A DNA stretch of 37,459 bases from Alphaproteobacteria bacterium (GTDB lineage Bacteria; Pseudomonadota; Alphaproteobacteria; Rhodospirillales; Rhodospirillaceae). A program made the translations under genes and the position numbers. Under the pieces are notes generated by a model that was not told the origin of the DNA, did no database searches, and saw only the letters and a program-made list of their open reading frames with translations. The stretch covers positions 1 to 37,459 of the forward strand of contig JAUIGX010000006.1 in NCBI GenBank assembly GCA_030432435.1, in the 5' to 3' direction. Below are positions 2,293-37,459 of the stretch, in pieces. Numbering within the stretch: position 1 is the first letter of the stretch; the number at the start of each line of letters is the position of its first letter.

Positions 2293-2991
2293 GTGCACCG
2301 TCTCATCCTCATAACCCAGCGAGAATTTGCCGAGATACTCGCCCAGCCACTCCAAGCTGCGGTCCCGGACCTCCGCATCGAGTTTGCCTGGTCCGCTGAC
2401 GAGCTGAGACAGGCCGTCATCCGCCAGCCCGAGGCCACCCGTCTAGTCTCCCTTGGCTCGGACATCATCGTCCCCGCCGATGTCCTCGGCCGACTGCCTG
2501 GCCCTGCGTATAATTTCCATCCGGGCCCACCGGCCTACCCCGGCATTTTTCCCTCTGTCTTTGCGCTCTATGATGGGGCTGAGCATTTCGGTGTCACTCT
2601 GCACGAGATGGCCCCAAAGGTGGATAGCGGCGCCATCGTCGCAGTGGATACATTTGCCGTCCCCGAGGACTGGGACCGTTTGGCGCTCGACACCGCCACT
2701 TTCGCTGCGTTGCAGAATTTGCTCGCACGAACTGCCCCGCACCTCGCCAATGTTGATGTGCCGTTGCCCACAATTTCGGAGGCGTGGACCGGCACTTCCC
2801 GCACGCGCAAAGACTTCAACGCCCTATGCCACATGCCGGAAGACGTAAGTGCGGATGAATTTGCGCGCCGCTACCGCGCCGTAGGCGAAGGACCAGAGCA
2901 CGCTCTTACCATCTCTCGGTTCGGTAGAATCTTCCGGTTAATGAGCAAACAGCACGATGGGGTAGTGCGCGGCGGACAAAGAGTACGATAA
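2293..2991 (+). CDS. Formyltransferase-like protein (Fmt/GART fold)
   Basis: GTG start; YNFHPGPPAYPGIFPSVFALYDGAEHFGVTLHEMAPKVDSGAIVAVDTF matches the formyl-transferase core (N-HP-LP-G...G-T-H-----D-G-I). Confidence 0.82.
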   Translation: MHRLILITQREFAEILAQPLQAAVPDLRIEFAWSADELRQAVIRQPEATRLVSLGSDIIVPADVLGRLPGPAYNFHPGPPAYPGIFPSVFALYDGAEHFGVTLHEMAPKVDSGAIVAVDTFAVPEDWDRLALDTATFAALQNLLARTAPHLANVDVPLPTISEAWTGTSRTRKDFNALCHMPEDVSADEFARRYRAVGEGPEHALTISRFGRIFRLMSKQHDGVVRGGQRVR

Positions 2992-3043
2992 GTCTGTTCT
3001 CACACCGTACCGCCCGCTTCATAAATTCCCGCGCTTAAACCAT

Positions 3044-4318
3044 TCAAGCGCGCAAAACCAATCCGGACGCTAAAGTCTTACGGAATGCCAACCACGCAGG
3101 AATAACACCTAGTAGGCATGAAGATACCGGCACAACGAAAACCACATACAAATCCGAAAGATTGGGCTTCAAGTCGTCTAGGGTCACACCATACTCATCC
3201 CCAATAATAGGGGTGGCTATAGCAATACCGCAGTACAGGAGGACTATAGCCAGTACAGTCCCCATAAGGGCTAGCAACCCGGATTCAGCAATCAGCAAAG
3301 TTGAAATTTGCCAGGGTCTTGCACCGATTGTTCGCAGTATCGCCATCTCACGGCTCCGCGCACTAAGGCTGGTTAGAATACTAGTCAGTATTGTCAGCAA
3401 GCCGATAAAAATCACGAATGCGGATACTGATGATAGGGTTCTTTCAACAATCGTCACGACACTCCAGAGCTGACCAAGCCCCACGCCGGGCATAACAGCT
3501 TGGAGAGGTTCAGGCCGATAGGTGTTAATCGCGCGCTGAAAGCCAAGGATCGCAATTTTAGATCGAAGCCCCATATAGAAGGCCGTGATTTGATCAGGTT
3601 CGAGATTCATCTTTCGGACTCGATCGGCATTGACCATTCGCGCCAGCGGTGTTGGCGCACCGCTTTCCCAACCGACGTGAATCGCTTTTATCGCTTCCAG
3701 GCTAACTATGACGGTCCGATCTAGCGGCGTTCCGGTCGGCGCAAGAACTCCCGCTATTCTGAAAGGTTTGTCGGTGTGATGGGAAAAGCTTACAGACCCC
3801 AAGCCATGCGAAAGTACTATTTCTTCGCCGATCTTATATTTTAGATCTTTCTCGACGCTTGCGCCGATTACCACATCAAAAAGATCTTCAAATGCTCGGC
3901 CCGATGCAAATGTTAGGCGCGAGTCTTTTCCATAGCGATAACGGCTGAAAAGATCGTCAGATGTCCCAACAACGCGAAAGCCCCGATGAGAATCTCCCAA
4001 TGAAATCGGTATGGTCCATTCAACTTCGGGACGCGCAGCTATGTCCTGATAACTTTGCCAAGTGATGTTGTTGGTTGCATCGCCGATATGAAAGACAGAA
4101 TAGAGCAATAGATTAAGCGGCCCGCTTCGCGCACCAACGATAAGGTCGGTTCCCGTTATGGTTCGCTCAAAGCTGGAGCGCGCACCAGCCTGGATTTTCT
4201 CAACTCCCAAAAACAAAGTGACGCTCAGAGCTACAGCAAAAATTGTTAGGCACGCTGTCAACTGCCTGTCCATTACGCTGCGGAAAGCCAGATTTAAAAT
4301 GGCCAGTCCTGTTTTTAT
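3044..4318 (-). CDS. ABC transporter permease, FtsX/MacB type (ZrgE-like by context)
   Basis: ORF track starts at the internal ATG 4273; the open frame continues upstream as (ATT AAC) ATA KTGLAILNLAFRSVMDRQLTACLTIFAVALSV, the usual permease N-terminus. C-terminus has the FtsX domain (SARSREMAILRTIGARPWQI). Confidence 0.85.
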   Translation of the reverse strand: MKTGLAILNLAFRSVMDRQLTACLTIFAVALSVTLFLGVEKIQAGARSSFERTITGTDLIVGARSGPLNLLLYSVFHIGDATNNITWQSYQDIAARPEVEWTIPISLGDSHRGFRVVGTSDDLFSRYRYGKDSRLTFASGRAFEDLFDVVIGASVEKDLKYKIGEEIVLSHGLGSVSFSHHTDKPFRIAGVLAPTGTPLDRTVIVSLEAIKAIHVGWESGAPTPLARMVNADRVRKMNLEPDQITAFYMGLRSKIAILGFQRAINTYRPEPLQAVMPGVGLGQLWSVVTIVERTLSSVSAFVIFIGLLTILTSILTSLSARSREMAILRTIGARPWQISTLLIAESGLLALMGTVLAIVLLYCGIAIATPIIGDEYGVTLDDLKPNLSDLYVVFVVPVSSCLLGVIPAWLAFRKTLASGLVLRA

Positions 4319-5046
4319 GTTAATTTTTCCAGGCGGCCAGAAACGTCTTCTACTTGGTTCAAAGAGGTTAAATCGACGACGCGGTCGAAATAATTGGCAA
4401 GCATCGGGTCGTGACTCGCAAAAATCATACTGGTCCGACTTTTCTCAGATTCCTCCATGATCAACCTCATGAACTCTTCTCGCGTGTCTGCATCGAGTGC
4501 TGAAGAAGGCTCATCGGCGACAATCAATTGCGGCATGCCGACAAGGGCCCTCGCGACAGCCACGCGCTGCTGCTGACCGACGCTCAAGAAGCGCGCGGGA
4601 CGATGCAACAACTCTCCGTCGATAAAAAGCCGTTCCAGGATATGACAGGCCGCGTCGTTGACATTGCCGTGACCCTTTGCAGCCATATCGGCACGAAACT
4701 TAGAAAAGCGGCACGCAAGCGCGACGTTGTCCAGCGCCGACAAATACGGCAACACATTCAGAGTCTGGAAAATCACCCCCAAATGAGCTGCCCGGAATTG
4801 ATCCCTCTGGGCTTCGCCCATGGTTACCAGACTCTGACCCAATACGTTCAGGGTGCCTGAACTCGGCTTGATTGTGCCGCAGATAAGATTCAACAGCGTG
4901 CTCTTACCGCTTCCGCTTGGTCCGACAATCAACACCCGCTCGCCGACTTCAAGATTAAACTCCGTCAGATCGAGCACATACGAACCTGTCGGCCAGCTGT
5001 ATTTAAGACGGGCGATTTCAACTGCCTTTGGGTCCGGCGCGATCAT
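4315..5046 (-). CDS. ABC transporter ATP-binding protein, LolD/MacB type (ZrgD-like by context)
   Basis: Walker A GPSGSGKST, signature LSVGQQQRVAVARAL, Walker B LIVADEPSSALD; end overlaps the downstream permease. Confidence 0.93.
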   Translation of the reverse strand: MIAPDPKAVEIARLKYSWPTGSYVLDLTEFNLEVGERVLIVGPSGSGKSTLLNLICGTIKPSSGTLNVLGQSLVTMGEAQRDQFRAAHLGVIFQTLNVLPYLSALDNVALACRFSKFRADMAAKGHGNVNDAACHILERLFIDGELLHRPARFLSVGQQQRVAVARALVGMPQLIVADEPSSALDADTREEFMRLIMEESEKSRTSMIFASHDPMLANYFDRVVDLTSLNQVEDVSGRLEKLT

Positions 5047-30128: not shown

Positions 30129-31832
30129 ATGCGGGCAATCACCCACATTGAGGTGTATGCCGCCAAGGGCGGGCGCTGGGCGCTGCACAGCCGCGTGCTG
30201 GAAAATGAGCGCGGCCTGGCGATGGACACAGCCAGAGAGCTGAGCAACGACACCGATACCCCGACCCTAGTTCTCGAAGAACGCCTCGAGATGGAAACCG
30301 GCAATGTGCAGGTGGAAATCATCTACCGGAGCGCTGGCGCCACATCCGATATACTAGGCCCGGCGTCCGGCATGGACGTAACTTCCCGCGTTATTATGGT
30401 CGCGCTCAATGCCTTCGGGATCGGAGCCATTGTGGCCGTGGTATCCGCCGTTTTATTTTCGGCCGCCCAATCATCGTCCAGTTACGGATTTTTTCTACTT
30501 CTCGTTTTCGGCGTCGCCACGCTTGGGTCGGGGCTTTTGTTGTTCAAATACTATGTCCCCATGGACTTCATTCTATGGCGGCGCAAAACACCGGACTCCC
30601 AGCAGCGCACCTTGCAGGCTCTTCAGCACGGCGTAGAAAACCCAACGGCAGAGTCTCCTCACTCCTACCGCAAGTCTGCTTATAAAAATGAACCGCGGCC
30701 TGCGCCGCCGCCGCGCAGCACAGAGTCAAACATGGAGCAGACCTCGTTTCATATCGGCGAGTCCCCGCAAGACGACGATGCACCGCCTGAACTTGACAAC
30801 TCTGACGCCGCTGAAAGCACGGAAGGCACCGTCGCTGACGATGCGGCTGCGATCGAAGACGACCGGCTCAAAGAGCCGCGCGATCGCCTTACGGCATTTG
30901 CGACAAACTCTTTTGCCGAAGTTCTGACTGCTCGACCCGAAATGCAGGCCTTCGAACGTTACGGTGTCAATTTGTATATCGCGGGAGCTGCGATACCACT
31001 GGCAGGACACTACCGCCTTGATGAGCCGGCAAAAATAAAGCTTCTGCAGCATGCGCTGGAGCAAGCCGGAACGAATTCTGAGGCAGCTAAATCATTTTGT
31101 GAACGGTTGGATAGCGCCGTACAACGACCTCGCTACCGCAAACTTATGGATGCCGGGCAAGCAGCCATGACCGCCTTGCTGAATGGAACCAAATCACGCC
31201 AAGCCCCGCTGCCAGAATTGATTCAACAGTGGGCCGAACGAACAGAGCAAACGACCGACACAAAACCCGTTACCTTCTTACTCACCGACATTGTCGGATC
31301 GACGGCGATGACCAGCAAACTTGGAAACTCCGGCGCACAAAAAGTGGTGCGAGCCCACAACACGCTCGTTCGGGCGGCAACAAAACGGCATAAAGGCACC
31401 GAGGTGAAGCACACTGGCGATGGCTTGCTGGTAACTTTTCCAAATCCAGTCGCGGCCGTGCGCGCCGCAAGCGAAATTCAGCAGGAAGCCCTGGCCTACA
31501 CACTCGACAACCCTGACGCACCGCTTGAACTGCGGGTAGGCTTAAATGCAGGCAGCGCCGGGTTTGAAGACGGCGAATACTTCGGCGAGCCGGTTTTGCT
31601 GTTGGGCGGCATTTGCGATGCGGCCAAAACCGGCCACATCGCTTGCTCTGTGCATATTCAATCGAAATGCGGTGGGGCGGGGTTTCACTTCACCGACCTC
31701 GGAGAAGTCGCCGTCAAGGGCACTCCACAGCCACAACATTTGTTCGATGTGGAATGGAAGCCGAAACCTCGCGCGCCGAAAGACGAACTCGAGTACCGGC
31801 AGATCGGAACGCAAAACCCACCGGCGAGTTGA
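30129..31832 (+). CDS. Class III adenylate/guanylate cyclase with novel N-terminal region and two TM helices
   Basis: FLLTDIVGSTAMTSKLGNSGAQKVVRAHNTLVRAATKRHKGTEVKHTGDGLLVTFPNPVAAVRAASEIQ...LRVGLNAGSAGFEDGEYFGEPVLLLGGICDAAKTGHIACS. Confidence 0.93.
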   Translation: MRAITHIEVYAAKGGRWALHSRVLENERGLAMDTARELSNDTDTPTLVLEERLEMETGNVQVEIIYRSAGATSDILGPASGMDVTSRVIMVALNAFGIGAIVAVVSAVLFSAAQSSSSYGFFLLLVFGVATLGSGLLLFKYYVPMDFILWRRKTPDSQQRTLQALQHGVENPTAESPHSYRKSAYKNEPRPAPPPRSTESNMEQTSFHIGESPQDDDAPPELDNSDAAESTEGTVADDAAAIEDDRLKEPRDRLTAFATNSFAEVLTARPEMQAFERYGVNLYIAGAAIPLAGHYRLDEPAKIKLLQHALEQAGTNSEAAKSFCERLDSAVQRPRYRKLMDAGQAAMTALLNGTKSRQAPLPELIQQWAERTEQTTDTKPVTFLLTDIVGSTAMTSKLGNSGAQKVVRAHNTLVRAATKRHKGTEVKHTGDGLLVTFPNPVAAVRAASEIQQEALAYTLDNPDAPLELRVGLNAGSAGFEDGEYFGEPVLLLGGICDAAKTGHIACSVHIQSKCGGAGFHFTDLGEVAVKGTPQPQHLFDVEWKPKPRAPKDELEYRQIGTQNPPAS

Positions 31833-31846
31833 ACCTTATTGAGACT

Positions 31847-33943
31847 CTAGAATCTCATACGCAACCCGCCCGCAACAACGCGCGGCAAGCCGACCGATAC
31901 TAAACCGTCGGCACTAAGCCCGGCTTCAATCGTGCGATCAAAAACGTTCTCTGCACTTATAAACAAAGTGGCATAGTCGGTGACCGCCATGTCCGCATAG
32001 AGATCAAGCACAGCGTAGCCGGACAAACGACGGACGTTTTGATCGTCGTCGAATTGACTGCTAACGCCCCGGCCTTCCACCTTAAGAGTCCAGCGGTCAT
32101 CGGGCCGCCAGACTGCCGAGACCGTGCCTTGATGGCTAGCGACCTGGGCGAGCCGATTGCCGACCAGCGCCGGTTCATCGGTGCTGCGTTTCACTTTCGG
32201 ATCAGTGTACAGATACCGCAAAGCCATCTCGAACTGACTGGACAGCGCCCATACGGCTTCCGCTTCGACACCGTTCACCTCTATGCGGTCCAAGTTGCGG
32301 CGATGGCGCAACGACCCGCCGCCGGGAACAAAGACTCCCAATTCAGCGTTAAATCCAGGCGTCGTGGTAATCGTGATATTACTCACAGCATCGTTGAGCC
32401 AAACATGGAAAAACGTCGCGTCCAGCTTCAGAACGGCTGACGGCGACCATTCAGCGCCGCCTTCCACGCCCCAAAGACGCTCAGGGTTCAGGTTAGGATT
32501 GGCTTCGGTAATGTCGTTCCCGACGCGAAACGGTCTGTAAAGTTCATTGATGGTGGGGACGCGATACCCGCTGTACGCAACTGCTTTTACGGCCAAGTCG
32601 TCCGCGACCGCGATGTGCGCTCCCGCTCGGAAATTGCCGACGGTACCGTCGCGCACAGGAAACGCATCGTTGCGCAACGAAGATCCATCTGCGATCTCAG
32701 TTTCCACGCGCGAGCCATTGGACTGACGCCAGTAGTCGACACGCCCTCCCGCCGTAAGGGTCACCCCCGGCAACGCCTCCCAGTTTAACTCGGCGAACGC
32801 ACCGGTAATAAGCTGCTCGCCCCCCGCGCTACGATTGCGAGAGAATTTGTCGTTAACGACAAAGAACCTTTCGTTGGCAGAGCCTTCGACATGGCGCAAG
32901 TCGGCCCCCATCTCGACGGAGATCGTCTCGGTCAGCGGCACTCGTACGATTCCGTTTGCCCCGACAGCTGTCGAGGGAACGCTGTACTGGTCCAGAGCCG
33001 GGCTTGCGGTTGTGCGCGCATTGTCGATAGACGCGAATAATGTGCTGAACTTCTGATCGCGGAGATAGACATTGGCTTCCCAGGAAACCTGATCATCGCC
33101 GAGGTAGTGAACAAGACTGGCGCTGCCGTTCGCAATTTGGGTCTGCGATGCCTGCACATCGATACCGTTGATATATCGGTCGTCCGAATATCCGGCACTG
33201 ACGGTCAAGAGCGTGCCGTTGCTAAGGTCGATGCGCGTCCCACCCTGGAACCACCCGCCGCGATTATTCGCCGGTCGGTCAATTGGTCCACGCTGGTCTT
33301 CGCGTAGAAGATATGGACCGTCACTGTCGTGGCCGTTTACCGTTCCAAAAAACTGCGCACGTCCCACGGTGAACTGACCGGAGACCGTGCCTTCCATGCT
33401 GTTCAGGCTATCGCCGCGAATTTCGCCCCAAAGTGTGTTCTCGTCATCTGCACGGGTGCGAACGCGTATAACACCGGCCAGCGCAGAATTGCCCCAAGAC
33501 CCGGCACCTCCGCCGCGGGTCACAATCGTGCTGTCCACGGCTGCAGCCTGCATGCGGCTCCAATCAATCCAGCCGCCAAACGGGTCGTTCTGCGGAATCC
33601 CATCCAAAAGAAGAAGCGTGCGTCCTGCACCGCTGGGGCCAAGGCCTCTAAGGGTAATGCCCTGAGTGGTCGGATGTGCCGCACGACTTGACTGGCGGCG
33701 AAACAGGCCGAATCCAGGAACCGTTTGCAGCACTCCATCAAGGCGAGATTCACCCGAAGTATCGAGTTCTAATCGACCTATGGTAGTGGTGGCGTATATC
33801 TGCTCGCTGGGAGAGGGTGGCAAGTGGCGGGCGGTGACTTCGATCTCTTCGAGCGTCGGCACATTGCTCTGTGCCATGGCTCCTGACGAAACGATGCCGG
33901 CGGCCAAAACACTCGCGCCCCAAATCCATTTCCGACCCGTCAT
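31847..33943 (-). CDS. TonB-dependent receptor, substrate unknown
   Basis: Start MTGRKWIWGASVLAAGIVSSGAMAQ; plug ITLRGLGPSGAGRTLLLLDGIPQNDPFGGWIDWSRM; C-terminal ARVVAGGLRMRF-type barrel end. Confidence 0.92.
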   Translation of the reverse strand: MTGRKWIWGASVLAAGIVSSGAMAQSNVPTLEEIEVTARHLPPSPSEQIYATTTIGRLELDTSGESRLDGVLQTVPGFGLFRRQSSRAAHPTTQGITLRGLGPSGAGRTLLLLDGIPQNDPFGGWIDWSRMQAAAVDSTIVTRGGGAGSWGNSALAGVIRVRTRADDENTLWGEIRGDSLNSMEGTVSGQFTVGRAQFFGTVNGHDSDGPYLLREDQRGPIDRPANNRGGWFQGGTRIDLSNGTLLTVSAGYSDDRYINGIDVQASQTQIANGSASLVHYLGDDQVSWEANVYLRDQKFSTLFASIDNARTTASPALDQYSVPSTAVGANGIVRVPLTETISVEMGADLRHVEGSANERFFVVNDKFSRNRSAGGEQLITGAFAELNWEALPGVTLTAGGRVDYWRQSNGSRVETEIADGSSLRNDAFPVRDGTVGNFRAGAHIAVADDLAVKAVAYSGYRVPTINELYRPFRVGNDITEANPNLNPERLWGVEGGAEWSPSAVLKLDATFFHVWLNDAVSNITITTTPGFNAELGVFVPGGGSLRHRRNLDRIEVNGVEAEAVWALSSQFEMALRYLYTDPKVKRSTDEPALVGNRLAQVASHQGTVSAVWRPDDRWTLKVEGRGVSSQFDDDQNVRRLSGYAVLDLYADMAVTDYATLFISAENVFDRTIEAGLSADGLVSVGLPRVVAGGLRMRF

Positions 33944-34063
33944 AGTCCCTCCCGAGAACAAAATATAAGGTGTTGAAGCGCCTACCCTTATCAAAAAAGC
34001 ATCTGAGGCAACAAGATAACCCTACTTCTTGCGGTTCGATGCTGGTATTCGCGCCGTGATCAG

Positions 34064-34759
34064 TTGATTATACTGAGTAAAACAGTGTTGGGGCGCATAC
34101 TCGTGTGTAACAAAGCGTGTCGATTGGCCTCATTGGTGGTGGGGCTGCTTTCTTTTAGTGAGCCAGGGTACGCAGGCAACATTAGTGCCGCGATCGTGCA
34201 GAACGACGGCACGCCCATTCAAAGTGCGGTCATCAGTGTAAGGGGCAAGGGGCAAGCTCCGGCAACCGCGGCGGCCGGCACACGAGCCACCATGACACAG
34301 AGCGGGCAGCAGTTCAGCCCTTACGTGCTTCCAGTCCAGGCCGGAACCACGGTTGAGTTTCCGAACCGAGACCCCTTTCGCCACCACGTCTATTCATTTG
34401 CGGCCGCAAAAGTCTTCGAGCTTAAACTTTATGACTCCTCCGAAGCCGAAACGATGCTCTTCGATAAAGAAGGCGTTATCCCGCTCGGGTGCAATATTCA
34501 CGACAACATGCTCGCGTACATCTATGTCGTGAGCACGCCGCATTTCGGACGGACGGATAAAAACGGCAAAGCTGCCATCGAGGGGCTGCCCGCCGGCGAT
34601 TACACAGTCGAAGCTTGGCATCCGGATCAGCGTTCAAGTCCGGAAACGGCAGAGATAACGGTCACCACCGATGGAACGGTCTCCGTTCAATTTGAGATGG
34701 ACCTCAAGCGGTCGCGGCGGCAGGAAAAGCCCGGCGCATTCGACGACACCGAATACTAA
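34064..34759 (+). CDS. Secreted cupredoxin-like protein (often annotated methylamine utilization protein)
   Basis: VEFPNRDPFRHHVYSFAAAKVFELKLY...VIPLGCNIHDNMLAYIYVVSTPHF: His, Cys, His, Met arranged as in type 1 copper sites; then a carboxypeptidase-regulatory-like segment. Start TTG at 34064 or GTG nearby. Confidence 0.85.
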   Translation: MIILSKTVLGRILVCNKACRLASLVVGLLSFSEPGYAGNISAAIVQNDGTPIQSAVISVRGKGQAPATAAAGTRATMTQSGQQFSPYVLPVQAGTTVEFPNRDPFRHHVYSFAAAKVFELKLYDSSEAETMLFDKEGVIPLGCNIHDNMLAYIYVVSTPHFGRTDKNGKAAIEGLPAGDYTVEAWHPDQRSSPETAEITVTTDGTVSVQFEMDLKRSRRQEKPGAFDDTEY

Positions 34760-34773
34760 ATCGGAGCCCCCAG

Positions 34774-37164
34774 GTGTTTCAGACCTTTCAAACGCGACTG
34801 GTTCTGTTTTTCGGACTGCTGTTCTTGGTTGTCGGCATCGCGACGCTGTTGCTGGTGCGCAACGCCATCCAAAACAACATCTTCGATCAAGCGCGCGCGC
34901 AATTGGTGACCACGAACGATATTTTCAATATTCAGGTCAAAACTACGGCTGAATCGCTCGAAGACGGCTCTGCCGTTGTCGCGCAGGACTTTGGATTCCG
35001 TCAGGCAGTTGCAACGGATGACCGCCCCACCATTTTGTCCGCGCTCAACAATCTTGCGGCACGCATCAACGCCGACCGTGCTTTTCTGGTGTCCCTGGAC
35101 AACATCGTTTTAGCCGACACCGCCATGGATGCCGACGCCGTCAACTCATCCGCGGCCGCCTTTGCGTTTCCAGACATGATCGAAACCGCCGACATCGAGG
35201 GCAGTACCACGGCCGCGGCCGTCTTGGATGAAGAAATTTATCAGCTGGTGGTCGTTCCGGTGCTCGCGCCGGTGCCCATTGCCTGGATTGTGGTCGGCGT
35301 GGAAATCGATGACGCATTCGCCATGAGCCTGCAGCAAGCGTCGACCGTGCCCGCCGAGGTCACGTTTGCCTATGAGAGCGGTCAGCATGGATGGCGAACT
35401 CCTGCGTCCACATTGAACACGGACTTACGGGCAATTCTTGCCGGCGCCCTTACAAACGATACGCGCTTCATGGGCGAGCCGGGAACTCTTGCCATGGGCA
35501 CCAGCGACTACGTGACGCTGGTCGAACCCTTGTCGGAGTCCGGCGAGGGTTCGCATGTAAATATCGTGCTTCAGTACTCACTGGATGTCGCCCTGCAGCC
35601 ATATCAGCCCCTATTCTTCTCGCTGCTGATCCTCGCCGCAGCGGCGCTGACGCTGACGCTGGTTGCCGCGGCTGTCATCGCCAACAGCATCGCGAAACCG
35701 ATCCGCCAGCTCGACACGGCGGCACGGCGTATTCAAGACGGTCGCTACGACGAAAAAATCACTATTTCGCAGAAAGATGAATTGGGCCGACTGTCAGAAA
35801 CCTTCAATCAGATGATGGACGGCATCGCCGAGCGCGAAGAACGGATAGCTTATCAAGCCCGCCACGACTCTCCGTCCGGTCTGCCCAACAGAATGTCGTT
35901 TGAAGGCCACGTGGCCGACATGATCGTAGCGCGCCAAGCCGGACCCAGCGTCTTCAGTGTTCTGCTTTTACAAATCGGCCGTTTCTCAGAAATCAACAGT
36001 ACGCTCGGCCATGAGACCGGCGAGCAACTGGTCCGTAGGATCGGCAAAAGTTTGCAGGAAATCGTACCGGGTTCCGGCACTGTCGCGCGTCACTCGAACA
36101 GCATCCTCGCCGTAGCGCTTGATGAACATGATACATCAAAAGTGAAAGCAATCGTTGATCGCATTTTACACTTTTTCGAAGATGCCATCAGCATTGGCGG
36201 CTTGAACATTGACGTCACCATAACCATTGGGGGAGCGCGCTATCCAGATCATGGCACGACCAGCCGCGTGCTGCTGCAACACGCCGACACCGCGATCTAT
36301 GAAGCGAAACGCGCCGGCAGCACGTACATGGTCTATGATCCGGATCTAGACCCTCACAAGCCCGAACGACTTTCGATGATGGGCGAATTGCGCCGCGGCC
36401 TCGATGAAGGGCAATTCAAATTTTACTATCAGCCCAAAGTGGACATCGCCACCGGCACAGTGACAGCCGTGGAAGCCTTGATCCGCTGGATTCACCCCGA
36501 GCGCGGGTTTATGCCGCCTGACTTATTCATTCCGATGGCCGAGCAGACCGGCAACATCAAGAAATTGACAAACTGGGCTCTAGATAACGTTGTGAAACAA
36601 TCTCGGGCGTGGAGCGACAAGGGCATTCATGTAAAAATCGGCGTGAATTTATCGGCCCACGACCTTACCAATCGGCATCTTCCCGCGCAGATCGGCAAAC
36701 TGCTCGCGGATCACAATGTCCGGGCTGAAAGCCTCATTCTCGAAATTACCGAAAGCGCGGTTATGGAGGATCCCACTCGCGCGATGGAAGTGCTCAAAGA
36801 ACTCAACGCCATGGATCTGACGCTGTCCATTGACGACTACGGGACCGGATATTCCTCCATGGCCTATCTGAAAAGCCTGCCGGTGCAAGAGATCAAAATC
36901 GACAAGTCCTTTGTTCTAAATCTGGCGGAGAATGCCGGTGATGAGATTTTGGTCCGCTCGACCATTGAATTGGGGCATAATCTGGGGCTGAAGGTCACTG
37001 CCGAGGGTATCGAAGACCAGGGATCTTTGGATATTCTAAAACGATACGGCTGCGAAACAGGCCAAGGGTATTTCATCAGCAAGCCCGTCCCGGTCCAGGA
37101 CTTTGAGGAGTTCTATGCCACATCCCGTTGGTCGCCCAACCGAACCTCACAAGAGCCGGCTTAA
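34774..37164 (+). CDS. Membrane sensor protein: periplasmic domain-HAMP-degenerate GGDEF-EAL (c-di-GMP phosphodiesterase)
   Basis: GTG start; HAMP SIAKPIRQLDTAARRIQDGRYDEKI; GGDEF position reads ARHSNSILAVAL; EAL motifs EALIRW, EITESAVMED, IDDYGTGYSSMAYL, KIDKSFV, TAEGIE intact. Confidence 0.93.
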   Translation: MFQTFQTRLVLFFGLLFLVVGIATLLLVRNAIQNNIFDQARAQLVTTNDIFNIQVKTTAESLEDGSAVVAQDFGFRQAVATDDRPTILSALNNLAARINADRAFLVSLDNIVLADTAMDADAVNSSAAAFAFPDMIETADIEGSTTAAAVLDEEIYQLVVVPVLAPVPIAWIVVGVEIDDAFAMSLQQASTVPAEVTFAYESGQHGWRTPASTLNTDLRAILAGALTNDTRFMGEPGTLAMGTSDYVTLVEPLSESGEGSHVNIVLQYSLDVALQPYQPLFFSLLILAAAALTLTLVAAAVIANSIAKPIRQLDTAARRIQDGRYDEKITISQKDELGRLSETFNQMMDGIAEREERIAYQARHDSPSGLPNRMSFEGHVADMIVARQAGPSVFSVLLLQIGRFSEINSTLGHETGEQLVRRIGKSLQEIVPGSGTVARHSNSILAVALDEHDTSKVKAIVDRILHFFEDAISIGGLNIDVTITIGGARYPDHGTTSRVLLQHADTAIYEAKRAGSTYMVYDPDLDPHKPERLSMMGELRRGLDEGQFKFYYQPKVDIATGTVTAVEALIRWIHPERGFMPPDLFIPMAEQTGNIKKLTNWALDNVVKQSRAWSDKGIHVKIGVNLSAHDLTNRHLPAQIGKLLADHNVRAESLILEITESAVMEDPTRAMEVLKELNAMDLTLSIDDYGTGYSSMAYLKSLPVQEIKIDKSFVLNLAENAGDEILVRSTIELGHNLGLKVTAEGIEDQGSLDILKRYGCETGQGYFISKPVPVQDFEEFYATSRWSPNRTSQEPA

Positions 37165-37459
37165 ACCGCTGCCCGTTAAAACGGCATACATGGGCGCGGC
37201 AACCGGTGTCCTTTTTCTCATTGCTTGTACCGCCGGGAGCTTATCCGGCGCCCATGCGCAAGACTCCGGCCTATTTCCGGACGGCATCGATATTGACGTG
37301 AAAGGTTATATTGAAGGCCGCGCCGTCGCCACGGGGCAAACCCGGAGCTGGGAAGACGGCGGCCTTGGAAAACTTCGCTTCGGAAGTTCACTCGGCGGAA
37401 ACCACCGTGCAATGGTCCGTCTGGAAGGAGCTGCCGTCGCCCGTGTCATGCTTGGCTTC
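37115..37459 (+). CDS. Secreted/outer-membrane protein, N-terminal part (truncated by window edge)
   Basis: Open frame to window end overlapping the EAL gene 3' end by about 50 bp: MPHPVGRPTEPHKSRLKPLPVKTAYMGAATGVLFLIACTAGSLSGAHAQDSGLFPDGIDIDVKGYIEGRAVATGQTRSWEDGGLGKLRFGSS. Confidence 0.65.
   Translation, partial: MPHPVGRPTEPHKSRLKPLPVKTAYMGAATGVLFLIACTAGSLSGAHAQDSGLFPDGIDIDVKGYIEGRAVATGQTRSWEDGGLGKLRFGSSLGGNHRAMVRLEGAAVARVMLGF

Follow-up and report, generated by a model that had tools for sequence, protein, structure and literature searches.

A gene for a secreted, cupredoxin-like protein and a gene for an inner-membrane sensor enzyme of the dCache_3 type form a pair that is tightly conserved across the Pseudomonadota and in other phyla. 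Together with a predicted porin, the two proteins would, on balance, make up a three-layer envelope signalling module, in which a nested cupredoxin lies between the porin and a dCache_3-HAMP enzyme and its copper or redox state sets the breakdown of c-di-GMP.

The window (the whole stretch of DNA analysed, 37,459 nucleotides) is the entire contig G000:C276 of a 3.3-Mb assembly of 312 contigs; the features of the locus are collected in Table 1. As described in the initial annotation of this DNA, reading of the ORFs placed the sensor enzyme gene 14 bp behind the cupredoxin gene (34759 to 34774), and Pfam recognized the plug and barrel of a TonB-dependent receptor on the other strand, divergent from the operon. 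The cupredoxin gene is without a nearby ATG, and its candidate starts are TTG at 34064, GTG at 34085, and GTG at 34103. For the third gene there are two candidates, ATG at 37115 (with GAGGAG upstream) and ATG at 37190; its reported overlap with the sensor enzyme gene is true with the first of these starts but not with the second. The region between the TonB receptor and the operon contained no Fur-type site, no promoter-like match, and no clearly conserved block. Immediately upstream of the TonB receptor, the window carries a gene of the nucleotide cyclase type (30129-31832), and at two other loci (L028 and L029) a cyclase-type ORF is found directly upstream of the cupredoxin.

Table 1. Features of the cupredoxin-sensor locus in the window and the basis on which each was assigned
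Feature	Position	Strand	Basis and remarks
TonB-dependent receptor	31847..33943	-	Pfam Plug and TonB_dep_Rec; ATG at 33943; divergent from the operon
Secreted cupredoxin-like protein	34064..34759	+	ORF, Pfam, AlphaFold2, Foldseek; start uncertain
Split transthyretin-like (CarboxypepD_reg) domain, part 1	34169..34252	+	PF13620 score gain on joining
Nested cupredoxin domain	34283..34531	+	Profile matches NirK cupredoxin 6hbe, 9cck, and 5fc9; AlphaFold2/Foldseek
Predicted copper ligand His	34382..34384	+	88/88 homologues; outside both search patterns
Ligand loop CNIHDNM	34490..34510	+	Predicted ligands Cys 34490, His 34499, Met 34508; 88/88
Split transthyretin-like domain, part 2, with conserved Trp-His	34532..34702	+	PF13620; mature-form residues 124-179
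dCache_3-HAMP-degenerate GGDEF-EAL inner-membrane sensor enzyme, 796 aa	34774..37164	+	Pfam
Periplasmic dCache_3 sensor domain	34897..35532	+	PF14827, E=1.2e-13
EAL domain, catalytic motifs intact	36385..37086	+	PF00563, E=1.8e-70
Predicted porin-type outer-membrane protein, N-terminal part, running off the contig end	37115..37459	+	G080 homologue

The likely type 1 copper site read earlier from the motif HH...GCNIHDNM holds, as a prediction, at the levels of both sequence and fold. The AlphaFold2 model of the protein, built on an alignment of 64 sequences from which three plasmid rows were left out, has a mean pLDDT of 92.7, and its best Foldseek match was to NirK (E 1.7e-07), followed by purple cupredoxin, amicyanin, pseudoazurin, and plastocyanin; a profile of 64 sequences also retrieved, at the sequence level, the cupredoxin domains of NirK from the PDB. 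Each residue of the type 1 ligand set (His, Cys, His, Met) was found in every one of the 88 aligned homologues. For the Cys/His/Met loop, this invariance follows in part from the search itself, GCNIHDxM having been one of two patterns used to find homologues, a limit from which the first His is exempt. Within the HH motif, it is the first His that is the conserved ligand (88/88), with the second position varying among H, Q, S, and D. Sequence and model together suggest that the protein would bind copper at this type 1 site. With support of that nature, the protein might instead serve as a structural or binding partner of the porin and the sensor, its copper-like site being kept for stability and not for the sensing of copper or redox state, but this is improbable given that the four ligands are invariant while the proteins are only ~40% identical overall.

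The cupredoxin is nested inside a split transthyretin-like domain, an unusual build that the initial annotation had not pointed out. When the inserted cupredoxin part was omitted, the match to PF13620 rose from 38 to 48 bits and came to cover profile positions 2-81, whereas before joining the first third of the profile had remained unmatched; one homologue likewise matched PF13620 along its entire length. The likeness to amicyanin, pseudoazurin, the NirK domains, and the purple cupredoxin of N. maritimus (5fc9) lies in the cupredoxin fold and the His/Cys/His/Met set, and the difference lies in the nesting and in the tie to a signalling gene. An electron-transfer protein of methylamine oxidation, that is, an amicyanin working with methylamine dehydrogenase, is very improbable: the conserved neighbours at the mapped loci are sensor enzymes and barrels, the genera are mostly non-methylotrophic, and the nested architecture is unlike that of amicyanin, even though the ligand spacing (Cys-x2-His-x2-Met) is amicyanin-like, Foldseek returned amicyanin among its matches, and several of the hosts are methylotrophs. 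A search for the heavy chain of methylamine dehydrogenase (PF06433) gave no match in the genome of the window, and the control genomes were likewise without one. RefSeq labels homologues as "methylamine utilization protein" (e.g., NZ_CP104280.1 and NZ_CP084262.1), a misleading annotation to which the gene context gives no support.

The second gene product had been described as a periplasmic-sensor phosphodiesterase, and Pfam found in it the dCache_3, HAMP, GGDEF, and EAL domains, the first of which (PF14827) was matched in 18 of 18 homologues scanned. In the window enzyme, the EAL motifs EALIRW and IDDYGTG are present and the GGDEF active site reads HSNSI, a loss of the motif that some relatives retain intact; from these residues, the enzyme is predicted to be a c-di-GMP phosphodiesterase. 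Sequence searches matched no solved structure to the sensor nor, at E 1e-10, to the TonB receptor. No residues peculiar to cupredoxin-paired receptors emerged from a comparison with "orphan" receptors, a set consisting largely of sensors whose genes are arranged differently.

A scan of GTDB genomes yielded at least 594 relatives of the cupredoxin, the best 80 of which were read with 8 kb flanks and the domains at their loci mapped with purpose-built profiles. Among these best 80 of at least 594, the same dCache_3-type sensor gene was found within ~4 kb in 80 of 80, lying directly downstream on the same strand at 64 loci, upstream on the same strand at 10, and on the other strand at 6. Chance adjacency was considered and rejected, the 3.3-Mb genome having six EAL genes above the cut-off against 80 of 80 loci paired. 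The titles of the 80 records name Alpha-, Beta-, and Gammaproteobacteria, Verrucomicrobiota, Nitrospirota, Methylomirabilota, Rokuibacteriota, and Thermodesulfobacteriota; the label Marinimicrobia, carried by four, is reproduced here as given.

Because the best 80 had been picked by similarity to the window protein, the test was repeated on evenly drawn genomes. With a draw by class, the sensor was present at 12 of 12 strong cupredoxin matches (L108-L119), and most weak matches, chiefly single-domain cupredoxins, were without it. Lower-scoring cupredoxins taken as a control (L006-L020 and L120-L137), mostly single-domain, were generally without the sensor as well; exceptions among such cupredoxins were L122 and, more weakly and farther off, L203 and L204, and one member of the low-score set, L017, is a contig-end fragment of the genuine G080 locus. 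Single-domain cupredoxins at L126-L129, L131, and L132 repeatedly adjoin DUF4394 genes, another uncharacterised pairing. With a draw by phylum, involving 399 evenly drawn Pseudomonadota genomes and a cupredoxin threshold of E 1e-20, the cupredoxin was found at 60 places in 55 genomes, and the sensor lay in the stretch read at 47 of the 60, directly downstream at 46. The reciprocal search with the sensor domain identified 47 of the 399 genomes, 46 of which also had the cupredoxin; G374 was the only genome with a sensor and no detectable cupredoxin. Over the 399 genomes, the co-occurrence corresponds to a Fisher p of ~5e-50, a value that overstates independence because the genomes are related. 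Both genes were also present in G587, G600, G615, and G815, where the sensor enzyme is unlinked to the cupredoxin (in G587, it is followed by DUF3034 and globin genes), and this retention without linkage therefore favours a functional partnership over operon hitch-hiking. The survey of three-gene co-occurrence proposed in the initial annotation showed that the first two genes stay together across genomes, with an outer-membrane barrel as a recurrent partner; a lack of neighbourhood conservation, which would have spoken against the initial reading, was not what emerged. No description of the cupredoxin-sensor system was found in the open-access literature searched, and what was first suspected, a genuine pairing without an explanation, now has support reaching far past the window.

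The usual output behind the sensor is GGDEF-EAL, its place being taken by a nucleotide cyclase at L026, L035, L036, L046, L064, L114, L118, L148, and L155 and by a histidine kinase, as read from sequence, at L039 and L094. At least seven output changes were counted on a cupredoxin tree (quick FastTree); the enzyme part changes while the pair of sensor and cupredoxin stays fixed. Distances on the cupredoxin and sensor trees were correlated (r=0.77, with 0 of 2000 permutations as high), but the value for the cupredoxin and EAL trees was 0.81, so that the correlation with the sensor is no higher and therefore speaks for shared descent or co-inheritance and says nothing on the interface.

Over the part present, the third gene is 56% identical to its complete homologue in G080. 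AlphaFold2 folded that homologue into an all-beta barrel, with a pLDDT of 77 that marks the model as one of intermediate confidence, and Foldseek returned for it the porins OprP/OprO, VhChiP, and Omp32. By its homologues, the outer-membrane partner expected earlier is therefore a predicted porin-type protein. In G080 itself (L025:3979-7701, minus strand), a single ORF of 1240 aa spans the EAL enzyme and the porin and has a porin signal-like sequence in its middle, which points to either a genuine fusion or a lost stop. Among the best 80 of at least 594 relatives, the porin family was found at 13 loci and DUF3034 with a truncated globin at 33, one locus having both; at several others an unclassified protein of ~290 aa occupies that place, and two of three such proteins gave weak barrel matches. 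The gene set includes a porin-like barrel and, often, an exported truncated globin. The globin, present in 36 of 88 mapped sequences, resembles the group 1 truncated haemoglobins in its Bac_globin match and in an invariant His of the proximal type, and it differs from them in being exported (lipobox-like signal in 27 of 36) and in having two nearly invariant Cys residues. Truncated globins with lipoprotein-type signals adjoin DUF3034 barrels at L042, L044, L072, L103, and other loci. The genome of the window has a second cupredoxin locus (L027, G000:C221, 6865-10560). The cupredoxin there has a single domain, and its gene converges on those for an exported truncated globin, DUF3034, and a 2Fe-2S/nucleotide cyclase protein; L027 also carries, at 2859-4370, a paralogue of the window porin. 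The TonB receptor fared differently: it stands next to the operon in no more than three cases, namely the window, G080 (L024), and L032, and on that count it was ruled out as a core part. It is a lineage-specific neighbour, confined to the closest relatives.

At five loci (L147, L170, L199, L200, and L201), a porin accompanies the cupredoxin and the locus showed no sensor gene, and a sensor of the same family is encoded elsewhere in the genome for four of them (G587, G787, G815, and G792). The cupredoxin may therefore have a porin-linked job of its own, its tie to the porin being perhaps no less fundamental than that to the sensor. By eye, L199 and L200 encode a TonB-receptor-like protein of 764-768 aa, then a 226-aa PiuC-type hydroxylase-like protein, the cupredoxin, and the porin, an arrangement that suggests an iron link. 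Such sensor-less pairs would agree with a co-regulated but separate set of proteins, in which the porin, cupredoxin, and globin handle copper, iron, or nitric oxide in the envelope while the sensor enzyme reads a small ligand of its own, and the TonB receptor of the window and the receptor-like protein of L199 and L200 suggest metal uptake nearby. P. aeruginosa provides a relevant comparison in PA2072 (IsmP) and PA14_37690, in which a periplasmic sensor of the CHASE4/dCache type is joined to GGDEF-EAL; copper binding was reported for the CHASE4 protein of strain PA14, the difference being that the metal there binds the sensor domain itself, and the text of that report (PMC13277305) uses none of the terms cupredoxin, methylamine, and hemoglobin. 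Copper is therefore a plausible cue, and the same observation also backs a sensor that needs no partner. A separate set is nonetheless rather unlikely, since both the retention of the pair when unlinked and the exchange of outputs on a constant sensor-cupredoxin pair fit a specific input partner better.

The layout of an envelope module with the cupredoxin as input partner, known here from its genes, has the outer-membrane, periplasmic, and inner-membrane HAMP enzyme layers of YfiBNR from P. aeruginosa and HmsCDE from Y. pestis, where YfiR/HmsC, the periplasmic partner, informs an inner-membrane cyclase of the redox state and is opposed by the outer-membrane part (PMC3375315; PMC4887326; PMC5550408). 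However, YfiR/HmsC is not a cupredoxin and works through disulphides, YfiN/HmsD is a cyclase, and YfiB is a lipoprotein and not a porin. The YfiR, YfiN, and YfiB families were absent from the Pfam and NCBIfam matches of the window, save for the HAMP-GGDEF part shared with YfiN (112 bits, cut-off 325). The resemblance would thus be one of working alike and not of membership, the parts coming from other families. In V. cholerae, NspS is a polyamine-binding partner and not a copper protein, and NspS-MbaA is not known to include a porin. Its likeness to the present system is that a separate periplasmic partner feeds a bifunctional c-di-GMP receptor (PMC8967002).

For the module proposed at the outset, the porin would admit the stimulus or help to sense it, the periplasmic cupredoxin would change state by copper loading or electron transfer, and the dCache_3 domain would read that state through direct contact, the signal then passing through HAMP to EAL and altering c-di-GMP breakdown. 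The exported truncated globin would join the module in many relatives, as would suit a signal in which oxygen, nitric oxide, or electron flow plays a part. Copper loading, the contact between cupredoxin and sensor, the direction of the effect, and the identity of the signal are inferred from the anatomy of the system. The idea of a periplasmic redox or copper signal feeding c-di-GMP turnover with an outer-membrane partner, as first put forward, is supported in part, by the conservation of the genes, the predicted site, the EAL domain, and the recurrent barrel; the TonB receptor is not supported as a general part. More tentatively, nested cupredoxins may be the input subunits of dCache_3 receptors in a widespread class of envelope sensors, porin-fed and often accompanied by an exported globin, whose interchangeable outputs (c-di-GMP, cyclic nucleotide, or phosphorelay) would convert a copper-linked or O2/NO-linked electron state into second messengers.

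Second-messenger enzymes with a periplasmic partner are a known kind of system, to which the present one belongs; what is new is the type of partner. To our knowledge, the input is known for only a minority of the c-di-GMP enzymes that have periplasmic sensors; the conserved cupredoxin names a testable input, copper or redox state, for a receptor group present in about one-eighth of the sampled Pseudomonadota genomes (47/399), Pseudomonas included. It also gives a first context to DUF3034 and the exported truncated globins, and the conservation points to an undescribed route by which copper or redox conditions on the outer side of the membrane would be signalled to the cell interior.
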